Origin: Bryoerythrophyllum caledonicum
Lineage: Eukaryota > Streptophyta > Bryopsida > Pottiales > Pottiaceae
Direction: 5' to 3'
NCBI GenBank assembly: GCA_963971425.1
Contig: OZ020519.1
Span: 7,828,028 to 7,892,027 of the forward strand
Length of the DNA: 64,000 bases
A program made the position numbers and the translations under genes. Below, piece by piece: positions 20,310-47,144 of this stretch. Position 1 is the stretch's first letter. Each line of letters begins with the position of its first letter. The notes beneath the pieces were generated by a model. That model was not told the origin of the DNA and did not search any database. It worked only from the letters and a program-made list of their open reading frames with translations.

Positions 20310-23300
20310 ATGGCTGGACTTGCCGCTGCCTCGTCTATCGTCGGAGCATGCGCCTCCCTCGCCGGTGAACAGCTCCGCAATGGCGCCGCGTCCCTCCAAG
20401 TAGGCCATCAGCCCCTGCATTGTCTCAAATTCGAGCTTACTGTGAAATTCGTGCGTTTGCTGTGAGGTTGCCGTGCATTTGGTGATGTCGACTTGAAATT
20501 GTTGACTCTGAGAATTGTGATTGTTTGCGGTGCATTGGTCAGAGGTTCTGGTGTGAGGTTTAGGGTGCAGTCGTGTGAGGCTAGGGTCTCCTGATGCGTG
20601 AATTTTGTTTATTTACTTGAGGCTGAGGTTTTTGAGTGTTTGATTTTCTTGTTTTTTTCTGGATTTTTATTTAGAGAGTGATACTGAAGAAGAGGCTTGA
20701 GTTAATTGAGTTAATTGATATTCATATACGATTTTCCTGATTTTTTTTTGTTGGGAGGATTTGAGTTTGAGGTTGTGGAGGTTTTTGATTTTGTGAATTT
20801 TCTGATTTTTGTGCAGGTTTATGGACCTTCGGTGGCGGTGCCGTCGCGGAAGGCGGTAGGAGTGAGGGCGATGATGGGAGGAGGTGGGGGGATGTTTACG
20901 CAGACGCGGCCGGAGGTGAGGCGCATTGTTCCGGAGTCGCGGCCGGGGGTGCCGGTGGTGAAGGTGGTGTACGTGGTGTTGGAGGCCCAGTATCAGAGCT
21001 CGTTGTCGGCGGCGGTGCGGAACATTAATCGGACGAGGAAGGATCTGCGGGTGGAGGTGGTAGGATACTTGGTGGAGGAGCTTCGGGACGCGGACAATTT
21101 CGAGACGTTTAAGAAGGACGTGGCGGACGCGAATGTGTTCATCGGGTCGCTCATCTTCGTGGAGGAGCTGGCGCAGAAGGTGAAGCAGGTGGTGGAGGTG
21201 AACAGGGACAGGATGGACGCGGTGATCGTCTTCCCATCCATGCCGGAGGTGATGAAGCTGAACAAGCTCGGGACGTTCTCCATGGCACAGCTCGGGCAGT
21301 CCAAGAGCGCGATCGCGCAGTTCATGCGGCGCAAGCGCAAGGAGAATGTCGGCAACTTCGAGGAGGGCATGCTGAAGCTCATCCGCACGCTGCCCAAGGT
21401 GCTCAAGTACCTCCCCTCAGATAAGGCGCAGGACGCCAGGAACTTCATCATGAGTCTGCAGTTCTGGCTGGGCGGCTCCCCGGAGAACATTGAGAATTTC
21501 TTGGTGATGATTTCGAACTCGTATGTGCCGGCCTTGGCGGACAGCAAGCTCGAGTTTGACGACCCTGTCGTGTTTTTGGATACTGGAATCTGGCATCCTA
21601 TGGCTCCTCAGATGTACGACGACATCAAGGAGTATCTGAACTGGTATGGCACCCGACGTGACGCCAACGAGGCGCTCAAGGACCCGAATGCTCCGGTTGT
21701 CGGTATTGTCTTGCAGCGGAGCCACATTGTCACTGGTGATGAAGGCCACTACGCCGCTGTTGTCATGGAGATGGAAGCGAGAGGCGCCAAGGTTGTGCCC
21801 ATCTTTGCAGGTAATTTCCTCGTCTAATACAGTTCATCTTAGATGCAATGTGCGTTCGGAAATTATGCGAGAGTCGGTGGTTTGATATGCGTTTTTGTGC
21901 ACCAGGCGGACTTGATTTCTCCGGCCCTGTGGAACGCTTCTTCTACGACCCCATCACGAGAAAGTCCTTGGTACAGTCCGTAGTTTCTTTGACTGGCTTC
22001 GCTCTGGTGGGAGGACCTGCCAGCCAGGATCATCCGAAGGCAATTCAAGCCTTGTCGAAGTTGGATGTGCCATATTTGGTGGCCCTTCCTTTGGTCTTCC
22101 AGACTACGGAAGAGTGGTTGGGCAGCAGTTTGGGACTGCACCCTATCCAGGTCGCCCTCCAGGTCGCTCTTCCTGAGTTGGACGGAGGTTTGGAGCCAAT
22201 CGTCTTTTCTGGACGTGACAGCCGCACAGGTTGGAGCCTTCGAAGTTGCTTTTCGTGGGTAGTTCAGTTTAATGCATGTCTGGAGAAACTTACATTTTCG
22301 TCTGCATACTTAGGAGTGGTTGTGTGATGACGCAGGTAAATCTCATGCACTTCATGACCGTGTGGATCAGCTCTGCACCCGTGCTATCAAGTGGGCCAAT
22401 CTTAAGCGTTTATCGAAGGCGGAGAAGAAGTTGGCGATCACTGTCTTCAGCTTCCCACCTGACAAGGGCAACGTCGGAACTGCTGCCTACTTGAATGTTT
22501 TCTCCTCTATTTACAGCGTGTTGAAGGAGCTGAAGGCAGAAGGATACAACGTCGAGGGACTTCCTGAGTCATCAGAGGCGCTCATTGAAGAGGTAATCCA
22601 CGACAAGGAGGCTAGGTTCAGCAGCCCCGACCTGAATATTGCCTATAAGATGCCCACCCGAGAATACTACCAACTGACTCCTTACGCCAAGGCTTTGGAA
22701 GAGAGCTGGGGCAAGGCTCCAGGAACCCTTAACTCCGATGGCCAGAACCTCATCGTGTACGGAAAGCAGTTCGGGAACGTCTTCATCGGTGTTCAGCCGA
22801 CCTTCGGATACGAAGGTGACCCAATGCGGCTCCTTTTCTCCAAGTCCGCCAGTCCTCACCACGGGTTTGCTGCGTACTACACTTTCCTAGAGAAGATCTT
22901 TAAGGCCGACGCTGTGCTGCACTTTGGAACTCACGGTTCACTGGAATTCATGCCTGGGAAGCAGGTTAGTTCTCTCCTGTTGGTTGACAATTTTCGGATT
23001 TCTTCGCACTTGAGTTCTCTCATCAGTTCATTACTGTTGAACTGTCAGACTATGCTCCCTCAAGGCTGACTTTTCTGATTGTGATTTTGGATTGTGTGGC
23101 TGTGTAACAGGTGGGTATGAGTGATATCTGTTATCCTGATTCTTTGATCGGGAACATTCCCAACATCTACTACTACGCCGCGAACAACCCCTCAGAGGCT
23201 ACCATCGCGAAGAGACGTAGTTATGCCAACACCATTAGCTACCTTACCCCCCCTGCCGAGAACGCCGGTTTGTACAAGGGCTTGAAGCAGCTGAGCGAGC

Positions 23301-25694
23301 TGATTTCTTCCTACCAGTCACTAAAGGACTCCGGTCGGGGTGCACAGATCGTGTCGAGCATCATCAGTACTGCCAAGCAGTGCAACCTCGATAAGGATGT
23401 GAATCTTCCAGAGGAGGAGACCGAGCTTTCTGCTGACGAGAGGGACACCGTGGTCGGGAAGGTTTACGGAAAGCTGATGGAGATCGAGTCGCGGCTCCTT
23501 CCCTGTGGGCTTCACGTCATCGGTGAACCACCTAGCGCGGAAGAGGCGGTGGCAACTCTGGTGAACATTGCTGCCATTGACAGGCCGGAAGAAGAAATCT
23601 TCGGCATGCCCGGGCTCTTGGCGAAATCTTTGGGCCGGGACATCGAGGACGTCTACAGGAGTAGCGACCGTGGCGTGCTTGCGGATGTGACGCTTTTGAA
23701 CGACATCACCCAGACATGCCGTGAATGTGTTGGCGCGTTCGTGGCGAGGACGACCAACAAGCAAGGGCGCGTCGTGAGCGTGCAGAAGGATCTGACCAAC
23801 CTCTTCGGCTTCATGAAGAAGGAGCCATGGATGGACGTCCTGCGTAACTCCCCATATCGCAACGTCGACCAGGAGAAGCTCACTACCCTCTTCGAGTTTC
23901 TGGCGTTCTGCCTAAAGCAGGTAGTGGCGGACAACGAGCTCGGTGGATTGTTGCAAGCCCTGGATGGGTCATTCGTGGAGCCTGGTCCGGGAGGCGATCC
24001 CATCAGGAATCCCAAGGTGCTGCCCACCGGGAAGAACATTCACGCGCTGGACCCTCAGGCCATTCCCACAGCCGCGGCTCTTGCTAGTGCCAAGATCGTC
24101 GTTGACCGTCTCCTGGAGCGCCAGAAGGCCGAGAACGGAGGGAAGTATCCGGAGACTGTTGCGCTCGTACTCTGGGGAACTGACAACATCAAGACCTATG
24201 GCGAGTCTCTCGCGCAGGTTTTGTGGATGGTCGGTGTCAAGCCCGTGCCTGATGCCCTCGGTCGTGTGAACAAGATTGAGCCGGTCCCTCTTGAAGAGCT
24301 CGGACGTCCCCGTGTCGACGTGGTGGTCAACTGCTCAGGAGTGTTCAGAGATTTGTTTATTAACCAGGTAAACTTCTCCTCCTCCTCCTCCTCCTCTCAT
24401 GTTCCTCTCTTTCACAACATCATTTTCTGATTAATCCCTCTTTTTCTCCAGATGAACTTGCTGGACAGAGCAGTGAAGACCGTCGCGGAGCTCGACGAGC
24501 CCCTGGAGATGAACTTCGTCCGCAAGCACGCCCTGGAGCAAGCGGAAACCATGGGCGTCTCGCTCCGCGAGGCCGCCACTCGCATTTACTCCAATGCGTC
24601 CGGCTCCTACTCCTCCAACGTGAACCTCGCGGTGGAAAACTCCTCTTGGAACGATGAGAAGCAGCTGCAGGATATGTACCTCTCACGCAAGTCCTTCGCC
24701 TTCGACAGCGACGCTCCCGGTGCGGGGATGAGCGAGAAGAGGAAAATCTTTGAGTCCGCCCTGGCCACCGCCGAAGCCACGTTCCAGAACCTCGACTCGT
24801 CTGAGATCTCCCTCACCGACGTCAGCCACTACTTCGACTCCGACCCGACCAAGCTGGTGCAGAGCTTGAGGCCGGACAAGAAGCGCCCGAACTCGTACAT
24901 TGCGGATACCACCACCGCCAATGCCCAGGTGCGGTCCCTGGCTGAGACCGTGAGGCTGGACGCGCGCACCAAGATGCTCAACCCCAAGTGGTACGAGGGC
25001 ATGCTCTCCAGTGGATACGAGGGCGTCCGTGAGATCGAGAAGCGGCTCACCAACACCATGGGATGGAGTGCAACCTCTGGAAATGTAAGTTACCCCTCTC
25101 TCTCAGCAAATTATTCCTTCCTCCCTCATAACATCTCAGAACTAGCCTTCCAATCTGAGAAAAATTCCTAAATGATCCTAGATTCAAACTGAAAGAGCCT
25201 CATGAGGATGACTACCACAGTGAATTAAATACGTGGAATTGAGCACTGGTCAGTCCAAATACCAAAGACGCCGATTTAGCATTGATTCGAGACTCCTTGT
25301 CTGTGATGAGTTAGTGGGTGCTAGAATAGGATTATTGCTTCTTGAGTAACTTACCTGAATGCGTAGATCCCCACAAAGGAAGAGGTAGAGTCTTTACTAT
25401 AACTTATCAACCAGGGTACCTCCATGACTGCCTTTACTTCTTTTCCTTCGCTGACCGGTCTCGCTATTGCAGGTTGACAATTGGGTGTACGAGGAGGCGA
25501 ACAACACGTTTATCAACGACGAGGAGATGCAGAAGAGGCTGCTGGAGACGAACCCGAACTCGTTCCGCAAGCTGGTGTCGACCTTCCTGGAGGCGAACGG
25601 GCGCGGCTACTGGGAGACGTCGGAGGAGAACTTGGAGAAGCTGAAGCAGCTCTACCAGGACGTAGAAGACAGGATTGAGGGCATCGACAAGTAG
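20310..25694 (+). CDS. CHLH: Magnesium chelatase subunit H (ChlH/GUN5), plastid
   Basis: Seven exons (20310-20399, 20817-21810, 21906-22229, 22336-22964, 23111-24367, 24452-25084, 25473-25694) close in phase to 1382 residues, the usual length of plant CHLH. It is the porphyrin-binding subunit of Mg-chelatase, which with ChlI and ChlD inserts Mg2+ into protoporphyrin IX at the first step committed to chlorophyll, in the chloroplast; the plant protein also takes part in plastid-to-nucleus signalling. Exon 1 plus the start of exon 2 give a transit peptide, followed by [21 protein letters not shown]. Conserved blocks include [59 protein letters not shown] and, near the end, [25 protein letters not shown]. 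Codons are GC-biased compared with the surrounding intergenic DNA. A CT-rich microsatellite lies in the intron after 24367. Confidence 0.97.
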
Positions 25695-35098: not shown

Positions 35099-35108
35099 GG
35101 CCATAGGT
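35099..35108. repeat. Target-site duplication, left copy
   Basis: GGCCATAGGT directly precedes the left end of the transposon and is repeated exactly at 47135-47144, directly after the right end. The bases on each side of the two copies differ, so the duplication is exactly 10 bp. Confidence 0.88.
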
Positions 35109-35160
35109 CAGGATTGCTATCTTGTGAGCGGTGAGCCTTGAGCAATGAGCGGTGAGCACA
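35109..35160 (+). repeat. Left terminal inverted repeat with five 7-bp subrepeats
   Basis: After CAGGATTGCTATCTT come five heptamers: GTGAGCG, GTGAGCC, TTGAGCA, ATGAGCG, GTGAGCA, then a T-rich tract. The right end, read inward, shows the same plan. Arrays of short repeats at transposon ends are usual transposase-binding sites; binding here is inferred. Confidence 0.85.
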
Positions 35161-35691
35161 GTTTTTTTGGTTTTTTTTTTGCCCAAAAAATCTAAAAAAA
35201 TATATGGTACCTAAGGCCGTGGATTAAATTTACAAACTTTTGGCAATAAATTAAAAACATGCAACAATAAACAACGACAAGATATTTGGACATTGTGACT
35301 ACGTAATTCTTGATGTTTAGGATTGTAACAATTCGTCTAAAAACCTGGAGTGACATCTATGGCCGTGGATTGGATCTACTTTATCCTTTTAATACATGGG
35401 TGACATCCATCTAATACCTAGGCGATACCCGTGTTGTTTTACTACTTTGATTTGGAAAAGTTAGATACTTTGAAAGTATTGGCATGTTCAATAAATATGG
35501 TTTGAGATTGTAAAAATCTCGTGGCACAAAACATGAAATGTATTAACATAATACAAATGATAATTAGGTTGGCTAAGTATATAAAGAAACAAATCGATAT
35601 TCCTGAATAAAACACAATAGATAGAAGACTTTAATAAAGATATAAAAAAACAACATGCATTGTTAAAAAAAAATACAACCAAATGGATAAT
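35161..35691. other. AT-rich sub-terminal region of the transposon
   Basis: No coding exon recognised. It begins with poly-T and poly-A tracts similar in kind to those inside the right terminus. Confidence 0.5.
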
Positions 35692-35966
35692 TCAATTTTC
35701 CTCCCCTGATAGCTCATCTGAGCTATCCTCATAAATACCAGGCGAACTACTATCCGTACCACTACCAACCGCTTCCCCATCTATGAAGCGCTCTGCTGCG
35801 GACCTGCGTTGGGGTACTCGTGAAATCGGAAGAGGAGATGGTAGGGCAGCCATCGCATGTGCGATGCCCCAATCCCAAGGATTCATGTGATACGAACGAG
35901 GCGGACTCATCATCTCCTTCGACAAGCGCGATAACACTCCGGTTTGAGATGTGGATGATGAAGCCA
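35692..35966 (-). other. Open frame with acidic tail after the methylase gene
   Basis: A minus-strand frame continues past the predicted stop of the methylase-like gene. It encodes a short segment ending GIYEDSSDELSGEEN and a stop at 35692. It looks like a natural acidic C-terminus but is in another phase from the preceding exon (donor at 36090/36089, acceptor at 35984). Either it belongs to an alternative splice form or a frameshift has cut it off. Confidence 0.35.
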
Positions 35967-38900
35967 TCAACGACGTCGACCGACTGCATTAATCAAGTGG
36001 AATGGTGATGTCAACGACTGAATATTTTCAAAGGCAGTAAACTTCAACGGAAAGTCAATTAAATAAGATGGGACCCTAAACGTACTTACAAGTCCTCTTG
36101 CGAGCGGTCTTCACCTCGGGCTCGTCATCATCAACCTCCAATGGGCGTTTTCTAGAGCCTTCATGCAACGGTGGCTGAATTCCGGACTCTACTTCCATGG
36201 TGCTCGGAATCAAAGGGCGGAGGACCTCATCAACCAAACCAGCGTCCTCTTCTAATGCGAGGATGTGGCGCTTAAGGGCCTTACAAGCCTTGATGGATGC
36301 ACCTATTATAATGAAACAAGTTAATAGAAGTTAGCAAATGAGGAAAAAAAACCATGAGAGAAGAAGAAGTCTGTAGAACACTTACCTGTGGATGCTGTAA
36401 GATCGAGGACAATCTCATCTTCTTTGGTACAAAGGTCGATAAGAGCCTCCATGAGGTTGGAGGACTTCTCTCGTGCTCCACGCCATGGCTGGTTGGTGGA
36501 TCCTCTCATCGTCAGCGTCTCCTGGGAAATCAGATTGGTCAAGTGACCATCTGATGACAATTGAATCCCCTCCAGCAGCAATTCCATCCTATCATTAAAT
36601 GAAAACGGAACCCAAGGCTCCAACTTCCTCACATAGCACTTCACCATGAAGTACTTGTGAGTGCGACCAGGATGGCCCTCGCGGGAGAGAGACAAGCCAT
36701 TAATGGCAAACCACTTTGTCTCCTCACGGAAATCTGCCCACTCAGCCCAAGCATGAAGTTCGTTCGAGATGAACTTCGAGTCTGGATAGAACACGATGAG
36801 CGGTGCCCCATCGCGAAGCAAGGCCTCTGCCATCTCGAAACATCGGTGAATCCAAGGGGATTCGAGCTTCCCTCCATCAGAGTGCTGAGTTGGAAGTTTG
36901 TTCCAACTCGGCACCGAACCACCGCCCTCAATTCCAGGGACGGGCAAATCCTCAGGGACATCAAAGAGTATCATGTCCACCAAACCGTCATCGCAAGGCT
37001 CTCCGCGGTGATGCCGCAAACGCGACCCGGAATGCACCTTCATAAACTGCCGCATCTCTAACCAAAGAGATGGCAGGTCATCCTCTTCAGCAATACTATC
37101 GAACAAAGTCATAATGCTGAGAGCGCTTTGAGAAATCACCTCCACTCCGACAGTAGACTCCAAATGCTCCATTGCAGGAATCGTGTAGATTGTCTGCGAG
37201 GACTTTGCCACGTAGGTGGAGGGTCGGCTGCTGCCCGATGGAGAAATGCCTTGCGTCGGTCCCATGGCAGCTGGAATAGCGAACGCTGCTGCCCCTCCAA
37301 GCTGAGCAAACAACTTCTCAGGCCCCTCCTTTGCCACCAATGCCGCCAACTCCCTATTCCTCTCCCTCGTCTCCTTCTTCAAACTCTTCGCTTTGAGATT
37401 CTCCACCCTCAATGCCTCCTTCTCTGCCGCCTTGAGCGCCGCCTTCGTCGCCCTTTCCGCAGCCTTTGCACGATCCTTCTCTAAAAGCGAACCGTCAACT
37501 GCCTCAACTACGGCAGAAACTGAAGAAGGAAGCATGTCGCCATCTCCACCAGTGGCTAAGGAATCACAGTCTCTTCGAAGCTGAAGCTCTTCACCCGGTG
37601 TGGGATCCGAATTCTTCAACTCCAAGTACCAAGGGCACTGCACCAAGTGATGACGAGAAAAACGTTGCCTCTGCTGCTCGGTGAAGATATAGTCTGGTGA
37701 AGTAGGGTCCGTCCACTTCTTGAAGCGGATGGGCATTTGACTTGGCACCAACGCTCCTTTAACCACTAGCTCCCTCCAGAAGTAGCGAAGCACCGCCCGC
37801 TTCATGGTCTTCTCGCATCCCTCCTGCTTTAGAAACTCCTCTGACTTCGAGAACACACATTTTCTCCCAAGGTGGTCCTTGAATGCCTTCGCCCACAGCA
37901 TGATGCTCCAAGCCTCCATCCAAGAACCAATGTCTTGGATGGGATTAGGGAGCCCGTCATTCGTCAATACGACGTTGTCCTCTTCAATTACCTCCGAGAA
38001 CTTCTTCTCAATTTCCTCCTCCAACTATAATATATAGTACAATCTCTTAGACAAAATCAATATCCAAAATTGTTACTTGTAATTGCAATAGACAATAGAG
38101 ATTTGGAAAACTCACCCCTGCCCAAAAGGCTGCAGTATCGATCCATCCCCGAAGACTCGTGTCTGAAGCTGGCGATTTGGGGAAATTGTACTCCGCCCTA
38201 CTGTCCTTGCTCATGTTCCACCATTTGCACCATCTTCCCTTGAACTTCCCAGCCACCTTCGCCGTGCAAATGAGTTGGAGCTTCTCGAGTGTCATCTCTG
38301 GCTTAGTCTGGTAAATATCGAAATGACGCAACACCTAAAGTAGAGCACGAGTAACTGGACTCAGTTATGGTTCGAAACTAAAACAAATTGAAACAATATG
38401 GATAAAACATAAACAGATGCCATATAATTTGAAATTCACATACCTCCTTGAAGAATTCCTCACCGTTCGCCGGGTTGGCAACCGCCAACATCCGTGTGAA
38501 TGTTGTTTGACAAGCTATTTTTTTCTTGTGCACGGCATCAGTGCAGAGTCTCACCAACTCTGTTGGACTTTCAACGCGATCAACACCAACACCAGTGACA
38601 AGGCTATCCTTGTAATTGCGTATGCACTCCTCTTGGGCAGCAATAATCTCCCGCTAGAAACCAACATTCATCAGAAATACATAATGAAAATTTAACAGTT
38701 ACTGAACAAAAATGCAATGATAATTTCAATTCAAGTGTAGGCTGATAAGCATACCTCAAACATGAGTTTCTGAAATGCGTCATACGCCATGTGATACCAT
38801 TTCTTTGTAGTCTTCTTCCCCCACTCGTGCACACTAGCTTCGTAATCATCATCACTAATCAAGCCCTTCAACTACTCAAAGTCCAACAATCCGAAATGTT

Positions 38901-40001
38901 GGACCCTCTTCAACTCATGTGATAAATGCTGCGTGACGTGATCAGCCTCTTTTTGCCTAGAATAAACAAACCATAATTTAGATACGTGCATGACCTATAT
39001 GGATTTAAACCACCAAATACGACCATGGCAACGATGATAATTGGAGAATTGCAGAATTATTATTGACAAAAACCAGGAGGATTGCATCTTACTTGTTAAG
39101 ATCAGTCATGGCGTTGAGAAGAATATGGCGGTTTTCCAAACACGGCTCTAGAACCACTGCCCTCACCGGTGAATGGAAGATGAAGTCTCGAGAGTGCATC
39201 TGGGATATCACCTCCATCCACGCAATGTGGCGGTGGTTGCCATCCCAGATAAAGAAGTACTTGTTTGAGAACGACTGCAACTCCGGCCTCATCTGCAACA
39301 TCATCTCAAACTTGCGATCCTCCTCTTGCCAAAGTGTAGACCAATTGGCTCGCTCAGAAGGGAGTATCTCCTGCTCGGTCATTGAGAAACTCTTCGACGC
39401 AACATAGAAACATGCGGATCCGGGTCGATATCCCTTCACAAACTCCGCCTTGAGCTTCTCAACATCACTCTTCAAGGGGAGACGAACTTCCGTCATAGGA
39501 AGCATGCGGCATAGTGGAATGAGGAGCTCCTCGATTGAAGGGTAGAGTGACCTCTGTAGGACATCTGACGCTGTCCCACGAATGGACTTCCTCAACGCTT
39601 GCTCGGTCGATTCCATCCTCGAGTCGCCCTCAAAGTCATGGATCTCTTCCTCCTCAGGTTGATTCATCGGATCTAAGCTCTCTCTACAGGATACCGTCCC
39701 TTGTTCTTGCGGTGCCACCTGAAATATTAAAGCACGAAGGAACGTCACCATAGAAACACAGTGAGCCTATAAATCTCTCTCACTCGGAACGCAGCAGCCT
39801 ACCTCATCGAGGGGGACGCACCCTGTAGTCATGGACATCCCAAAGGACCCAACGTTCCTTAAGCGCTTCTGACCCGAGGCCTCCACCTGAAACCAACATA
39901 CAAACCTCAGCACCAAGCATGCAATCAACATAAAAAATCAGCGTACCTTCTCCACGAGGGTATGAGATAGTCCCCTATTACGGATTCTGTCATCCTGCGA
40001 T
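35967..40001 (-). CDS. Transposon-borne ParB-like / N4-N6 DNA methyltransferase-like protein, probably interrupted
   Basis: Exons 39886-39803, 39718-39093, 38956-38755, 38653-38444, 38334-38116, 38024-36386, 36302-36090 and 35983-35967 join in phase with good donors and acceptors. A short exon near 40001-39947 probably lies upstream and the true start is not resolved. The product exceeds 1000 residues. The second exon carries WDGNHRHIAW (39244-39218), the DGxHR signature of ParB/sulfiredoxin-like domains. The 1.6-kb exon carries a putative motif IV, MILFDVPEDLP (about 36979-36945), then a Rossmann-like strand GAPLIVFYPD. Joined across an intron comes motif I, IVLDLTASTGASIKACKAL, followed by HILALEED, where the acidic residue would contact S-adenosylmethionine. 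Motif IV before motif I after an N-terminal ParB domain is the order of bacterial and phage beta-class methylases. Motif IV lacks the usual (D/N/S)PP(Y/F/W). An in-frame TAG at 38874-38872 would stop translation after the ParB-like part. Function in the host or element is unknown. Confidence 0.72.
38872..38874 (-). pseudogene. In-frame TAG stop inside the methylase-like gene
   Basis: In exon 38956-38755 the only open frame that joins both neighbours in phase reads LLDFE-stop-LKGLISDDD. Reading resumes in the same frame, so this is a point nonsense change, not a frameshift. Unless the exon is skipped or the base is a sequencing error, the methylase-like part is not translated from the upstream start. 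Confidence 0.6.
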
Positions 40002-40029
40002 CCTGAACCTTGCTACGCGTACCCTAAAC

Positions 40030-41596
40030 GAGGAGTAGTTGGAGATAAGAAAACCGACGAGCAACAGTACTCGTGAAGAGGAAAAACAAAAACCACGACT
40101 CACCAGACCACCCTCAGATCCGAGGGTCAAATTGTGCAACCAAAATTTCAAAAAAAAAACGCGCGTACCTCTACCACGAGCACTGGAATCTGCTCTCACT
40201 AGCGAGCTCCGCTCCACGCGAGCACCTGACTTTAATTCGCGTACCCTAAAGGAGGAGGACCAGCACCTGGTCTATCACTAGTTGGAGATAAGAAAACCGA
40301 CGAGCAACAGTACTCGTGAAGAGGAAAAAAAAAACCACGACTCCCCAGACCACCCTCGGATCCGAGGGTCAAATTGTGCAACCAAAATTTCAAAAAAAAA
40401 ACGCGCGTACCTCTACCACGAGCACTGGAATCTGCTCTCACTAGCGAGCTCCGCTCCACGCAAGCACCTGACTTTAATTCGCATACCCTAAACGAGGAGG
40501 ACCAGCACCTGGTCTATCACTAGTTGGAGATAAGAAAACCGACGAGCAACAGTACTCGTGAAGAGGAAAAAAAAAACCACGACTCACCAGACCACCCTCG
40601 GATCCGAGGGTCAAATTGTGCAACCAAAATTTCAAAAAAAAAACGCGCATACCTCTACCACGAGCACTGGAATCTGCTCTCACTAGCGAGCTCCGCTCCA
40701 CGCGAGCACCTGACTTTAGTTCTCCAAGCCCTAAATGAGGAGGACCAGCACCTGGTCTATCACTAGTTGGAGATAAGAAAACCGACGAGCAACAGTACTC
40801 GTGAAGAGGAAAAAAAAAACCACGACTCCCCAGACCACCCTCGGATCCGAGGGTCAAATTGTGCAACCAAAATTTCAAAAAAAAAACGCGCGTACCTCTA
40901 CCACGAGCACTGGAATCTGCTCTCACTAGCGAGCTCCGCTCCACGCGAGCACCTGACTTTAGTTCTCCAAGCCCTAAATGAGGAGGACCAGCACCTGGTC
41001 TATCACTAGTTGGAGATAAGAAAACCGACGAGCAACAGTACTCGTGAAGAGGAAAAAAAAAACCACGACTCCCCAGACCACCCTCGGATCCGAGGGTCAA
41101 ATTGTGCAACCAAAATTTCAAAAAAAAACGCGCGTACCTCTACCACGAGCACTGGAATCTGCTCTCACTAGCGAGCTCCGCTCCACGCGAGCACCTGACT
41201 TTAATTCTCCAAGCCCTAAACGAGGAGGACCAGCACCTGGTCTATCACTAGTTGGAGATAAGAAAACCGACGAGCAACAGTACTCGTGAAGAGGAAAAAA
41301 AAAACCACGACTCCCCAGACCACCCTCGGATCCGAGGGTCAAATTGTGCAACCAAAATTTCAAAAAAAAAACGCGCGTACCTCTACCACGAGCACTGGAA
41401 TCTGCTCTCACTAGCGAGCTCCGCTCCACGCGAGCACCTGACTTTAATTCTCCAAGCCCTAAATGAGGAGGACCAGCACCTGGTCTATCACTAGTTGGAG
41501 ATAAGAAAACCGACGAGCAACAGTACTCGTGAAGAGGAAAAAAAAAACCACGACTCCCCAGACCACCCTCGGATCCGAGGGTCAAATTGTGCAACC
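40030..41596 (-). repeat. Tandem array of 242/243-bp units, about 6.5 copies
   Basis: The word GGAGATAAGAAAACCGACGA recurs at 40041, 40284, 40526, 40769, 41012, 41254 and 41497, giving periods of 243, 242, 243, 243, 242 and 243. Units are nearly identical; variation is mostly in A-tract length. Each unit contains the 18-bp palindrome ACCCTCGGATCCGAGGGT (one base changed in the first copy), an A8-A10 tract and, on the minus strand, an AG|GTACGCG splice-donor-like site preceded by an exon-like GC-rich segment. The array lies between the small minus-strand gene and the methylase-like gene. Long open frames through it result from a period divisible by three and are not called genes. Confidence 0.92.
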
Positions 41597-41702
41597 TGAT
41601 TTTAGAATAAAAAATGTGCGTACCTCCTCTACGAGCGCTCGGGACTGCAGTGTGGAGACGGCTGCGGTTCATTCCCCTACCTCGAACTGAAGAGCAGCAA
41701 TC

Positions 41703-42552
41703 CTAATCGAAGTGGCCGAGCACCTTGAGGATGTGGCTGAGGAAGTGAATATTATAATAATTGGTTGACCCATGGTTCACGGTATCGTTGGCACCGGGAT
41801 AATCCTGGCGCTCCAAGAATATTTGAATGAACTATATGTAACGATGTGAGACATTGAGACTCTAGAAGTACTATTCATTCAATCAGGTTCTGCAGACGCC
41901 GGATAGGGAGGCTATGATACGTACCTGAGGCGATGAGCCTGGTCCTGGCTCAGGTTGTGATGGGGTTTTGCTGTTCTTACTTCGATGATGAAATCTAGCT
42001 AGACTAGCGAGTGTTTGAGCTGGGGAAGGGGGGTTGATATTTGTAGACCTTGATGGATTTCCTCGGCTTCTAGATGCAATAGTTGACTTCATCGTTTGAC
42101 ACTGAGACTCCTCAGAACTGTCGTCAGTCTCCTTACCTCTTTCCAAAGAGGTATCCGAGGCACCAGATCTCTGATACTGACTCATCGTATTAGCTTGAAG
42201 TAAGTCCTCTTCTAGTGTCTTCCCACAAATATGTTCACTAGGCCTGTTCACCTGCACGATATTGGAACGACTGTAGTCAAGCCCTAACACTACTCAACTT
42301 ATATGAGTCAATAATCTCTGCAAATCAATGGAACACCAATCAAAAAATACCTGATCTCTATAACGGGATGATGAAGCTCCTTTGTGGATAGTTGTCAAAT
42401 CCCTAAGTTCCTAACTTGATGTTGCGCCCACTTCTACTGTATTTCTGAGAAGCTAATAATGCTAGCTTCTCTCGACGTTTCTTCTGAGCGCGTACTTGCT
42501 TAGGATTTGAAAACTTTGTAGGCCTTCTCCTCTGTCTAGCATTCTTAATCAT
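41703..42552 (-). CDS. Small transposon gene of unknown function
   Basis: A four-exon model (42552-42496, 42410-42351, 42251-41925, 41831-41703) joins throughout at codon boundaries and gives about 190 residues. It starts MIKNARQRRRPTKFSNPKQ, strongly basic, continues with a Ser-, Gln- and Pro-rich middle part (SSEESQCQ, QPEPGPGSSPQ) and ends with HFLSHILKVLGHFD before TAG. No domain is recognised; the basic start could bind DNA or direct nuclear import. Unspliced, the first exon alone reads as a 49-residue basic peptide. All junctions are inferred, the first being the least certain. Second genes of unknown function are common in Mutator elements. Confidence 0.45.
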
Positions 42553-43155
42553 CCTCAGCACTCAACCCTAAACTATTATCTCCACTTCCGAAACATCACA
42601 AACTAGCAGGTATAGCACTCACTAATAGTCACAACTGCAAGGTTGCAACCGTGCAATACTTATCTCATCATGCTACCTTCGACGAGGGGGATAGATTCAG
42701 TTCTCGAAAATATCGGATCTTGACAGTCTTTAGTTTGAATAGAGACAACGTTGTAGTCTCTAATAATGTTACTTTCACCATATATATCCCACCGTCTGGC
42801 GCAAACTTCATATTTATAGGTATACCGAGCATCACTATTGAAAAAAGACTGCAGGCATGGTATTAAAACAACGGGCAACCCTTTCGTTTCAAGGAGCCCC
42901 GATTAGATAATTTGATATATTAAGATATGCATGGACTACTACAAGCATGACTTTCATTGCTTTTTGTCGTATCCGTCCAGGAGGAAAGAGAATTGCTGCA
43001 TGAGCATCCTACGTGTAATATTAATTTATTATCCCGCCGGAAAAAGGCCAATGAACCATCTTATTTGAATGTGGACGCAAGCAGTGACTCATTCTCTTTC
43101 GTCAATCCAAGGTCATTTCGTGAAGTTGTTCAACCTTCTTTGAGACCCCTGGAAC

Positions 43156-46100
43156 ATGGCGTCTCTTTCATCATGTCGAGGGGGCATCCCTTTTCTCATG
43201 CCTGTTGGTGAACGTGGCACTGTCATTGTCGCAGAGTCTTTGCTCTGTCTTCGTTTCGGATTTAAGAGTGGAACAGTTCAAGTCGAACAGGAAGTATTTG
43301 ATAGTAACGGGATTCACACGCAATCCATTTATCAAGTCAAAGATCGTGATGCGGTAGGATTTGTGTGGAATTTATGTTCAGGTTCATTCAAAGTGTACGG
43401 TGTGTTAGATGCTCAGATGTCTGGTCATGCATCTACAGCCGTCACCACTTTTTCAGAGGATTCCGGAGATACGATACTCCTGCCTGGTTTGGGCACGAGG
43501 TCTATCCCAATTGTCCATACACTTAGCGACACAGAGGAAGAAGATTTCACTGATCCCAACGTAGGCAACTCACAAAATCTCACCAATTGTCACAAGTCAT
43601 TCCTTCCCAGTATGTCTATTTCACCTGCATCGATATCCGATACGTCCCAATCTGTTTCAATAGGAAAGCCACCAGTTGATCCTAAATTCAGAAGAATACG
43701 GAGTATTCTTCTGCAAGTGCGTAAAACAGGTCTTAGGAAGGGGTCCAGGTCGGAGTTGTCACGAATTGATCTAGATAGTCTAGATCTGAAAAGTGTGAAG
43801 TACTTGCCTCCAGATTACAATGGAAACCAAATCTTTGAACTACCGCCACTTCCAGAGGGTATCCCCCCACAGTTTGGAGGGGGGCTCGATGGTATGAGTA
43901 AGCAGTACGATGGTCACGCTTGGTGCAGGACGATGACTACAAACATCAAGAATGACTTCAGCCTCACATACCGGAAGTCAACGTGTACCGGGCATCTCCA
44001 GTGTCCCAACGCAAGTTGTGACTATAAGAGCAGAAATGAAGGGCGCACGAATCAAACCGAGTGGAGCAGGTTCGCCTTCATCCCGTTTCCTGTCAACGGA
44101 CCACCCTCCGAGAAGTCAACATTGGCATGTAAGCTTTGTCGGACTCCTCCTATTTGTATATCTCTCTGTGATGCTCGTATCTACTACGTGACATCGACCG
44201 ATCCGTCACGCACTCGTGCGGCCATTCATCTTGGGCATCATGACCATCCCATCTCGAAAGGCGTCGACCAGTGCGCGATGGACGTTGTCCACGACTGTGT
44301 TGCCAAAGAAGTCCAGCGCACACCGAAGGCTACAAACTCCGCAATCATAATGGCAGCGAGCAAGAACTTTCTTTCTGACTACTTGATTTGTCCGGCATCC
44401 GGGTCATCTACTTTGGAAGGAGCTTCTATGGACGTTGTCCTGGATCAATTCGAGACACTGTCATCTCCAAATATTAGAAACCTTGTGTCAACTTGCAAGA
44501 GGTTCTATAGTGGTGGTAAGGGAGTGATGGACAACATTATGGCCCTAAAAGAATCGTCCAAGTTCGTGTTCATACACGAGAACAAGTTCCCTGGTCAATC
44601 CAAAGGTAAAGTATTTGTCTTCAAGATGTCAGTCGATCGAGCAGGTAGTGGTGTGGATCTTGTCAAGCGTATGCAACCCGGGAATGACCTACAAGATTGT
44701 TGGTTGATGTTGGATCATGCCAAGCGGGCCAAAGAATGGACAACCATGGCATGTCATGTATATGACAGTAAGTATTGTCGAGTCATGACAATTGCCATGT
44801 GCAATATGCAATCTGAGGATGCTGACGCACAACAGCTTTTCTGGGAGAATTTGAATAATACGATGAAGAACCATGGATTGGAGGCGACGAACTTCAAGGG
44901 CTTCATGGCGGATAGTGCTGGAGCTAACTGGCACGCAGTTCGTCGAGTTTACGGCAACGGCGACAAAGACAAGCCCATGGACAACAAGGAACGGACTTGT
45001 CTATTCCATTGGACGAAATGCCTCCAGCGAGCCACCGTTCGGAACATTATTGCCGGCTTCCAAGACCAACATATTGCCCTTTGCAAGATCTGGAAGAATG
45101 CAAAGTCACAAGAGGAGGCCGAAGCGCAATATTATGTAATAAGAGGGTGGTGGGTGTCCTCTGGTGCCACTACCGAAGTAGGGCGACGAGCTCTTGAGGA
45201 TTGGATGGCGTTTTGGCACTTTCGGTATCGACAGTGGGGCGGCGCAATGCAACTTGTAAGTTCTCTGTACTTTTCATACAATCTATTCTCCAGTTCTATC
45301 TGTTATAGTGCTTTGAAATCATTTTATGACCCTCGTTGACTCCTTATAGGATCTGACGCTGGATGAGAGGGCGGACATGCCTTCATGCAACCTCGCTGAA
45401 ACCGTCCACAACCGGTGGCTTCAACAATCAGGGAACACGATGACATGCTTGTACGCTGCCACCGTGGACGATCTCATCCGTGCTTTCATGCAGATAACTT
45501 CATATCGTGCATGGTTGAAGGGTGGAACATCTGGTACTGGACCGGACAAAGGCACTTTGAGGCTTCGTTCTGCTCAACGTTCAGGTGATCCCAAACTCAT
45601 TGCTGAGGCGATTAGGAACTTTCCAAATGCTGCAGATCTATTAAACCGAACTGGCGGACTAGAAGGTTCGGAGATTTTTGGGTCAACGAAGCGCAAGCTT
45701 GATTTGCCCCCAGGGTCCGAACATGATTCTCACCGTTCCGATACGGTGAACTACTCTATTCCACGAGATGGGACAAGGGTGACTCGGGCACGTATCGAGG
45801 AGTCCCTTAGCGGTCAAAACTCCGGAGTTCAACACACAACCTCCGTCCAAGAGTCGGACTGTGATCCAATGAAGTGGCACATTGCTTGTCTTCCAAAGAA
45901 GTCCGCTCGAAGATGCCAGGCATTGCAAGCTCATACAGGTCAGCAATGCAACGCTCGAGTACAACGTGGAAGTTATGGAACTCCGGCCCCAACATACGCT
46001 GGTTTTAAGAAGGATTTCAGGAGTCCACGAAATGTTGCTGCAGAGTTCTGGTTTTGCCCTGATGACATTAGCCGTTGTGTGAAGGGATCGAAGCAATTAT

Positions 46101-46717
46101 TTGTACTGGATTGGCCAGCAGTTCCGATGATGTGGCCTGTGAAGTTTGGCACAAACCTAATAGTGCAAGAGGTATTGGCGTTAGAGGAAGCCGGTTTCCA
46201 ATTGCAGCAACGTGGTGCTCTTTCACCATGTAGACAATTCCAAGTGTCTTTGGACATGCCCCTTCCACGTTCCCACTTCCCGGTTCCCGTGAATCCAAAT
46301 TCATTCCACACATTTTGGCACGGCTATGCGATCCGTAGGGCCTCGGACGTTCCCACAATTGAGCAACGCAATAAGTGGTCAAGCGCGGCTCTTATGAATA
46401 ACTGTTACGTTTCGAACGTCGTTGCCATACCATACCCAGGTTGGGGATGTGTTATTACCCTTGACACATGCTTTGAAAAGTCCTACTGCATCACCTTTAC
46501 GGACCTCCCGGGGTGTTCTTGCCCTGATTTCTTGAAAATGCAGTCGGAGGCATTGGGAAAAAAGGGGCAGTGGAAGTATTGCAAGCATGTGTACTACATC
46601 CTTCGTTACTTGTGTAAGATGGATTACAAGGTGGACGTATTCATGCATGCTCCCAGTTATAGCTTCAGCGAAGTGATGCGCATTCTCGAAGTTGCCAACA
46701 TTGCAGAACAAGCATGA
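43156..46717 (+). CDS. MULE transposase (WRKY/GCM1-like finger, DDE, SWIM)
   Basis: Two exons, 43156-45255 and 45350-46717 (intron with a GTAAGT donor and TTATAG acceptor), give 1155 residues. An N-terminal zinc-binding region has Cys277, Cys283, Cys288 and LGHHDHP with His362 and His364, like the WRKY/GCM1-type fingers that precede many MULE transposases. The DDE core shows Asp520 in WLMLDHAKR, Asp586 in FMADSAGAN, the Cys615-x-x-His618 pair that follows the second Asp in this class, and a candidate Glu653 or Glu654 in SQEEAEAQ. A C-terminal SWIM finger, Cys1089-x-Cys1091 ... Cys1111-x-His1113, completes the architecture. The frame is open throughout, so it may still be functional. The start ATG at 43156 is the first in frame. 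It is divergent from the two minus-strand genes of the element, which suggests shared promoter sequence near 42.6-43.1 kb. Confidence 0.87.
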
Positions 46718-47082
46718 GTAGTCAGAGTTTGTAGCAAAGATCAGACGTCAAGATTTGGTCCTAAGTAGCATCACAGAGTGAGCAAGATATCAAATTATAC
46801 TTTTGAATTGGGGATCAAAATCCTGAATTCAGAATATATGAGACATGATATTGTACTAAGTAATAAATTGAATGTTCATAGAAACGTAGTCATGAGAGAG
46901 GAGAAGACCCCAAATCAGAAGTTGTTTTGACAAAGCTGAGGTGACCACGGTTATAGGACTCATTCTTAATTTAGTAAATTGTATCAAACTTTGTGTGCAA
47001 TTTTTTCATTTCTGCGGATTTTTCCTTGAATTTCACATTTTTTTGAAAAAAACACTTTTTTTTTTTTTTTTCCAGAGATTTT

Positions 47083-47134
47083 TAGGCTCCCTGCTCGCCG
47101 CTCGCCGCTCACCGCTCACAAGATAGCGTCGCTC
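47083..47134 (-). repeat. Right terminal inverted repeat with five 7-bp subrepeats
   Basis: Read inward on the minus strand: GAGCGACGCTATCTT, then GTGAGCG, GTGAGCG, GCGAGCG, GCGAGCA, GGGAGCC, then AAAAATCTCTGG and a long A tract. It mirrors the left end with five heptamers in the same register. Confidence 0.85.
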
Positions 47135-47144
47135 GGCCATAGGT
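47135..47144. repeat. Target-site duplication, right copy
   Basis: GGCCATAGGT, identical to 35099-35108. Confidence 0.88.

Follow-up and report, generated by a model that had tools for sequence, protein, structure and literature searches.

Can a plant transposon carry a gene that joins a ParB-like domain to a DNA amino-methyltransferase-like domain and, if so, what would such a protein do for its element? The question is raised by a 64,000-nucleotide stretch of Bryoerythrophyllum caledonicum DNA, hereafter the window (contig OZ020519.1; C7:7828028–7892027 in the host assembly that we searched, 437 Mb in 894 contigs), in which an initial annotation made from the sequence alone had placed a transposon gene of this kind. 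We find that positions 35109–47134 of the window form a complete Mutator-like DNA transposon of 12.0 kb carrying two divergent genes: a transposase gene and a gene encoding an accessory protein, referred to below as the ParB-methylase gene. We lean, with modest confidence, towards the view that the accessory protein works like the VANC protein of Arabidopsis VANDAL elements, binding palindromes of its own element and regulating or marking that element.

The ParB-methylase gene lies on the minus strand between 39886 and 35692, i.e. past one of the limits first proposed for it (35967–40001) and short of the other. It comprises eight exons separated by GT-AG introns: exons 1–4 at 39886–39803, 39718–39093, 38956–38755 and 38653–38444, and exons 5–8 at 38334–38116, 38024–36386, 36302–36086 and 35983–35692, the donor of the last intron being GTACGT at 36085. 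Once joined, these exons encode 1,162 residues, counted from a provisional first codon. Two motifs highlighted by the initial annotation are recovered. First, WDGNHRHIAW is encoded on the minus strand in exon 2, within the part that corresponds to the ParB/Srx-fold domain (39095–39718; DGNHR at 39230–39244). Second, motif I of the methylase-like domain is created by the joining of exons: its first half, DLTAST(G) (36386–36404), precedes a phase-1 GT-AG intron that splits the Gly codon, whose first base ends exon 36386–38024, and exon 36086–36302 continues with GASIKACKALKRHILALEED and the following tail, so that the motif reads IVLDLTASTG and, across the junction, ASIKACKALKRHILALEED. The motif IV position noted there (36951–36962, minus strand) is correct, but its sequence is D-V-P-E and not DPPY. 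A chance joining of motifs is ruled out by other copies: 9 of the 29 fetched in addition to the window have exons 5–8 without gaps or stops, all eight exons are open and gap-free in copy L033, and in the distant family represented by L044 motif I (DLNASTGASLLACRASGRHFFGIEED) lies unspliced within one uninterrupted exon. Lesions do occur in other copies: exon 4 bears a deletion in L031 and a stop in L039 (family B), and a 1.7-kb insertion splits the ParB exon (exon 2) of L032, the C3:27.46M copy, relative to the window copy.

Members of the ParB/Srx superfamily share a conserved Gly/Arg nucleotide-pocket motif, G-x-x-R or G-x-H-R. DGNHR is present in 71 of 76 aligned rows. AlphaFold yields a confident model for the ParB domain, and 29 of the 31 matches listed after structural alignment of the model are named ParB, Noc, KorB, PadC, sulfiredoxin, free serine kinase or SbnI, the remaining two being unnamed hypothetical proteins. 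As modeled, the accessory protein contains a ParB/Srx fold, in agreement with the first proposal. A protein search with the exon returned 230 proteins, 120 of which were listed. Further families of ParB-type exons are present in the host genome: P0066 gave 171 matches, of which those listed over the full domain are about 34–57% identical, and ten places were examined.

Judged by sequence, the C-terminal domain is homologous to phage and bacterial N6/N4 amino-methyltransferases, with an altered motif IV. The joined window protein matches PF01555 over residues 838–1018 with an E-value of 6.3e-6 and 26.7 bits, exactly the curated cut-off, which the corresponding exon of L044 exceeds (30.8 bits, E 3.6e-7). 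A PHROG methylase also matches (3.4e-6), and the best PDB match, limited to the motif I segment (E 0.0087), is to a chain bearing the name DpnA. A profile–profile comparison was performed with hhalign against four annotated phage methylases, selected because this query had matched them by tblastn; it gave Prob 93 and an E-value of 3.4e-7 over 68 columns around motif I, as compared with Prob 0.2 each for reversed and unrelated controls. The order of the motifs, IV then I, is that expected of N6/N4 amino-methyltransferases. A full-length protein search found one database protein, and an alignment search found 10. Across families, motif I reads DLTASTG, DLTPSTG, DLNASTG, DAFASTG, DAFASIG or DCTASTG, i.e. 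D-[LAC]-[TFN]-[AP]-S-[TI]-G, a variant devoid of the first Gly of the D-x-[FT]-x-G-S-G type. A viral origin was rejected, since scans of viral contigs with the ParB and the methylase alignments, each using only one or two short peptide patterns, gave no relative.

Is this domain an enzyme? Its motif IV reads D-V-P-E, D-Q-P-F, D-F-P-D, D-I-P-D or D-I-P-E depending on the family, i.e. D-[VIQFM]-P-[EDF], so that we do not class it as an active N6/N4 member; the catalytic [DNS]-P-P-[YFW] is not found. The pocket, as read from the sequence, is recognizable but altered and, since motif IV lacks the first Pro and mostly the aromatic residue of DPPY, the domain may lack base methylation. That the protein methylates DNA at all seems to us somewhat short of an even chance. 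In its full form, the active-enzyme hypothesis states that N6-methyladenine (6mA) or N4-methylcytosine (4mC) is written on the DNA of the element, for instance on its palindromes, as a protecting or host-steering self-mark, as in phage self-modification or in the case of the bdelloid N4CMT. The PF01555 alignment covers positions 31–217 of the 221 of the profile, the motif I half being further matched by profile comparison and the motif IV correspondence being made by eye; D-x-P-x is present in all eight families read (A, the family of the window, L034, L035, L039 and L044–L047), and within family A all 30 copies retain the D and 28 of them the P. An annotated phage methylase related to the domain also carries D-L-P-F, and palindromic sites would suit a methylase. 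On the other hand, an acidic residue replaces the aromatic residue of DPPY in seven of the eight families, motif I resembles D-x-x-A-S-x-G and not D-P-F-x-G-S-G, and P0007, one of the ten database homologues, has D-V-H-E. We regard this hypothesis as rather doubtful. The same altered motifs IV and I would fit a catalytically dead methylase fold retained as a DNA- or S-adenosylmethionine (SAM)-binding regulator, which would be consistent with the purifying selection described below and for which the conserved adenine methylase of DIRS1 elements, described as inactive (PMC3537659), provides a precedent. However, a dead enzyme need not keep the D-x-P of motif IV and the motif I frame, which remain recognizable between families with methylase pieces of about 22–46% identity, and we would not bet on this explanation either.

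Several lines of evidence link the gene to a transposon, as had been proposed. The ends of the window element are CAGGATTGCTATCTTGTGAGCGGTGAGC on the left and, read as reverse complement, GAGCGACGCTATCTTGTGAGCGGTGAGC on the right; alignments of other copies start exactly at 35109. The element is flanked by a 10-bp target-site duplication, GGCCATAGGT (plus strand; 35099–35108 on the left and 47135–47144 on the right), and bears terminal inverted repeats, the 42-bp arms of which (35116–35157, plus strand, and 47086–47127, minus strand) are 81% complementary and contain an identical 21-base core, GCTATCTTGTGAGCGGTGAGC. These repeats run into short tandem heptamers, GAGCGGC/GAGCGGT (35116–35170 and 47086–47127 in the window; 175–213 in L039), whose number is unequal in the two families seen. 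Of the 30 fetched copies (the window being counted), 27 start at the base equivalent to 35109, changed in one of them, with differing flanks. Among the five elements read at two ends, the 10-bp duplication is perfect in three (window, C15 and family B) and matches at 9 of 10 positions in the C3 copy, so that in four of the five the gene pair is enclosed by related ends and a target-site duplication. Bacterial contamination is ruled out by the spliced gene, by its presence at at least 150 places in the host assembly and by the element ends with differing flanks.

The divergent transposase gene occupies the plus strand from about 43156 to 46717; it consists of an open stretch (43144–45339, coding from about 43156, with an exon end that is not fixed) and a last exon (45350–46717). 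When seven families are projected onto the window transposase, D524 is conserved in 7 of 7, D590, C619 and H622 (C619-x2-H622) in the 6 rows out of 6 that cover them, and a C-x-C...C-x-H finger in the 5 rows out of 5 that cover it, a pattern that we take to be that of Mutator-like element (MULE) transposases with a SWIM finger, even though neither the MULE nor the SWIM model was matched in a Pfam search with the window transposase. The element is called Mutator-like, on sequence grounds, because of this pattern and of the length of its target-site duplication. The range of MULE duplications is 8–11 bp (PMC6446971).

What could the ParB domain bind? Between the two genes lies a tandem array (40036–41626; 6.6 copies of a 243-bp unit), the unit number of which varies from copy to copy. 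The window array contains six perfect 18-bp palindromes, ACCCTCGGATCCGAGGGT, starting at 40352, 40594, 40837, 41080, 41322 and 41565 (span 40352–41582), and a seventh with one mismatch at about 40110. Family B has seven palindromes of 22–94 bp with the core TTTCGGATCCGAAA, also between the two genes, as are the five palindrome cores of L034, and L035 has two palindromes upstream of the ParB gene. The palindrome regions of A, B, L034 and L035 have a single 10-mer in common, TCGGATCCGA, and blastn-short gives no match at E 0.05 between those of A and B. This 10-mer is absent from the 51,974 bases of the window outside the element; genome-wide it occurs 2,527 times, as compared with 179 times for the same letters reversed, which also form a palindrome. 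Among the first 50 sites listed (C1, 0–7.41 Mb), 40 are clustered, and 16 adjoin three listed methylase copies with the same placement as the window array. In the more distant families, fam47 has TCGGGCCCGA twice; fam44 has a single GTTCTGTACAGAAC between the genes, with three related palindromes at other places in the stretch; fam45 has eight GCACTGCCG-N4-CGGCAGTGC sites and one variant; and fam46 has two GGGGTGCCG-N4-CGGCACCCC sites.

A uniform test for repeated palindromes (arms of 7, spacer of 0–6, same arm at two places at least) was passed by six of the first eight families, whereas none of 12 window pieces outside the element and none of 300 Markov sequences passed; palindrome counts were also compared with a Markov expectation. 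The test was then applied forward to the 4 kb upstream of six further ParB exons, which represent four families because two pairs are near-relatives (L057/L060, 90% alike; L058/L061, 96%). Four of these six stretches passed, corresponding to three of the four families: L056 and L060, with TCGGTACCGA in longer arms, and L058 and L061, with GCCATGGCCATGGC. L056 shares the TCGGTACCGA palindrome with L057/L060 despite the absence of a blastn match at 1e-6. In total, 8 of the 12 families contain a TCGG-NN-CCGA core, namely A, B, L034, L035, fam47, L056, L057/L060 and L059, and the arms and the centre of the palindromes change symmetrically between families. Perfect palindromes as long as 94 bp are found in the array units of family B (L039+L040, 5311–8500); they might form cruciforms or be a source of hairpin RNA and of small RNAs.

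ParB proteins are nucleotide-switched clamps that, in dimeric form, bind parS sites, which are palindromic. We propose that the elements constitute a two-gene Mutator-like family in which gene 1 encodes the transposase and gene 2 a maintained accessory protein, with a ParB/Srx domain at its N terminus and, beyond a long middle part, the C-terminal domain akin to amino-methyltransferases. The accessory protein, as a dimer, would recognize the palindromes specific to its family and so concentrate on its own element; there it would control the divergent promoters and/or keep the element unsilenced, the methylase domain either writing a mark on the element or serving as a DNA/SAM-binding module. 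From the sequences, binding of the palindromes by the ParB-methylase protein appears somewhat probable; the idea of DNA binding at the array, already put forward in the initial annotation, thus receives indirect support from the palindromes found there, the binding itself being inferred. That its purpose would be anti-silencing or autoregulation has in our opinion an even chance. The palindromes could instead be sites, promoter or subterminal, for the transposase or a host transcription factor, the ParB-methylase acting elsewhere. Indeed, they lie between both genes and may serve either, and in fam44 the palindrome TTCTGTACAGAA (L048+L044, 3158, 3220, 6058 and 16814) is not confined to the intergenic region, being also found between exons of the transposase gene and downstream of the gene for the methylase. 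However, core and arms change symmetrically, as expected of the sites of an element-encoded dimeric partner, and a fixed host factor would need no change of site; the transposase changes too and so remains compatible. We consider that another binder is unlikely. A more elaborate version of our proposal, which strikes us as improbable, is a ParB–parS-like system where the ParB domain would be a nucleotide-switched clamp, loading at palindromes specific to the element (core TCGG-NN-CCGA) and spreading over it; an unusual amino-methylase, tethered to the clamp, would thereby be brought to the DNA of the element and mark or insulate it against plant silencing, protein and palindrome co-evolving between families.

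A search of the host genome with the methylase domain gave 212 matches, 150 of which were listed at distinct places, and a search with the last transposase exon gave 93. For 70 of the 93 transposase matches, a divergent listed methylase partner lies within 20 kb (about 0.3 expected), with a median gap of 8.7 kb. The divergent pair is kept in all seven families with enough flank (A, B, L034 and fam44–47); the L035 stretch ended before any transposase appeared. The ParB-methylase exons of L034 show 49–77% identity and its transposase part 38%; the figures for family B are 44–79% by exon and 74–84%, and those for fam44–47 22–46% for ParB-methylase pieces and mostly 36–45% for the transposase. The ratio of nonsynonymous to synonymous divergence (dN/dS) of exon 6 is 0.277/1.447 = 0.19 between the window and family B and 0.042/0.333 = 0.13 between L035 and L039, and that of exon 2 is 0.086/0.383 = 0.22 between L035 and L039; for the transposase, 0.097/1.391 and 0.169/1.631 give ratios of 0.07–0.10. 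These estimates are rough, many dS values exceeding 1.4 and two exon-2 pairs being saturated. The sequences thus indicate that the ParB-methylase gene is under purifying selection. Although MULEs often bear captured fragments (PMC6446971), the presence of the pair in 7/7 families, dN/dS values of 0.13–0.22 and an identical exon structure rule out passive carriage of a captured host or foreign fragment of the Pack-MULE type, which we find extremely improbable.

A number of observations run counter to the proposal of a maintained accessory protein that binds its own palindromes. The window copy has one in-frame stop, on which the initial annotation was silent, in exon 3 (38755–38956), between the two domains; this exon is stop-free in L031, L032, L033, L034, L035 and L039. 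The family B transposase, in the copy read, contains a stop as well. As for the ParB part, none of four exons searched against Pfam matched a ParB model, and profile searches of the PDB by sequence found chance-like matches only and no ParB chain. In the methylase part, besides the alteration of motif IV, the hhalign match is limited to the motif I half; the database homologues P0001, P0003, P0005 and P0006 taken alone are below the PF01555 cut-off (16.2 bits at best, with no row at all for P0003 and P0006); and the AlphaFold model (P0001, intron read through, shallow alignment) has a predicted local distance difference test score (pLDDT) of 49.6, so that the methylase-like domain first proposed is upheld by Pfam, PHROG and profile comparison, i.e. 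at the level of sequence and not of fold. Regarding the palindromes, some of those of fam44 are located outside the intergenic region; perfect palindromes of at least 14 are lacking in fam45 and fam46, and the spaced-repeat rule was first tried on these two families alone, before the uniform test; fam44 and fam47 fail that test, as do L057 (TCGGTACCGA) and L059 (TCGG-CT-CCGA), each with a single palindrome; and B and L035 are close relatives (dS 0.33). Binding by the transposase or a host factor could, as discussed, account for the sites. Regarding the gene pair, 23 of the 93 transposase matches have no listed partner within 20 kb (two have one at 22–29 kb), 80 of the 150 listed methylase matches have no listed transposase partner (62 of the 212 being unlisted), and no transposase was found within 4 kb in L056, L057, L059 and L060. 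Finally, the fifth element read at two ends (C7:14.79M) is without matching duplications; its right flank resembles the left flank of a neighboring copy in opposite orientation, pointing to an inversion between these copies.

How does this system compare with known ones? VANC is not known to contain a ParB or a methylase domain, and in bacterial ParB-methylases the ParB domain comes first. VANDAL elements resemble the present family in being MULEs with an extra gene. VANC, an anti-silencing factor, acts through short motifs accumulated in non-coding tandem repeats that differ from one related element to another (PMC5735166). The present family has a ParB-methylase as its accessory protein and a palindrome as its motif, the likeness being one of motif-in-array anatomy only. 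Fusions of ParB/Srx to an adenine methylase are known in bacteria, e.g. Bacillus cereus Bce_0392 (PMC5512222), which bears out the bacterial precedent invoked by the initial annotation. The present gene differs from them by motifs some 650 residues apart, by splicing, by its location in a eukaryotic DNA transposon and by its altered motif IV; its ParB/Srx domain can also be likened to those of phage and plasmid polyvalent proteins. The contrast initially drawn with retroelements carrying C5 methylases overlooks the N6-adenine methylase of DIRS1 (PMC3537659), although DIRS1 is a retroelement with a tyrosine recombinase, not a MULE, and no ParB is named in the available text of that paper. Other transposon-borne epigenetic enzymes, namely TET/JBP dioxygenases in fungal DNA transposons and the SET domain in Phytophthora MULEs (PMC12730594, PMC6446971), are different enzymes in different lineages. 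The N4CMT of bdelloid rotifers is an amino-methylase of bacterial origin in a eukaryote, but it silences transposons, has an SPPY motif and a chromodomain, and is not described as transposon-carried in the available text of PMC8885841.

In the open-access literature that was searched, we found no account of a Mutator-like element with a ParB or an N6/N4 methylase; in the MULE survey PMC6446971, the words 'methyltransferase' and 'methylase' are both absent from the main text. As far as searched, the parts are of known kinds, while their combination and the co-varying palindromes are undescribed. If the proposal is correct, an old and numerous plant transposon family would use a prokaryotic-type ParB domain and an amino-methylase as a self-recognition device, a second solution to the problem solved by VANC; it would offer a testable case of co-evolution between an element protein and its DNA sites, and 6mA or 4mC in a plant-type genome might derive from it. 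To our knowledge, this would moreover be the first case of a eukaryotic transposon having a ParB-type domain together with parS-like sites.

Three further observations concern the surroundings of these genes. The opposite copies at C7:14723906 and C7:14791241 (L003; L002/L031/L036), 67 kb apart, seem to have exchanged flanks, by inversion through recombination between copies or by an assembly fault. Downstream of the family-47 methylase gene (L051+L047, 16985–17998) there is a second, more distant transposase start (32% identical), perhaps belonging to a neighboring or nested element. Lastly, the window contains, outside the element, open reading frames at 20715–25171 that, as befits a photosynthetic host, resemble and presumably encode the Mg-chelatase H subunit (CHLH).

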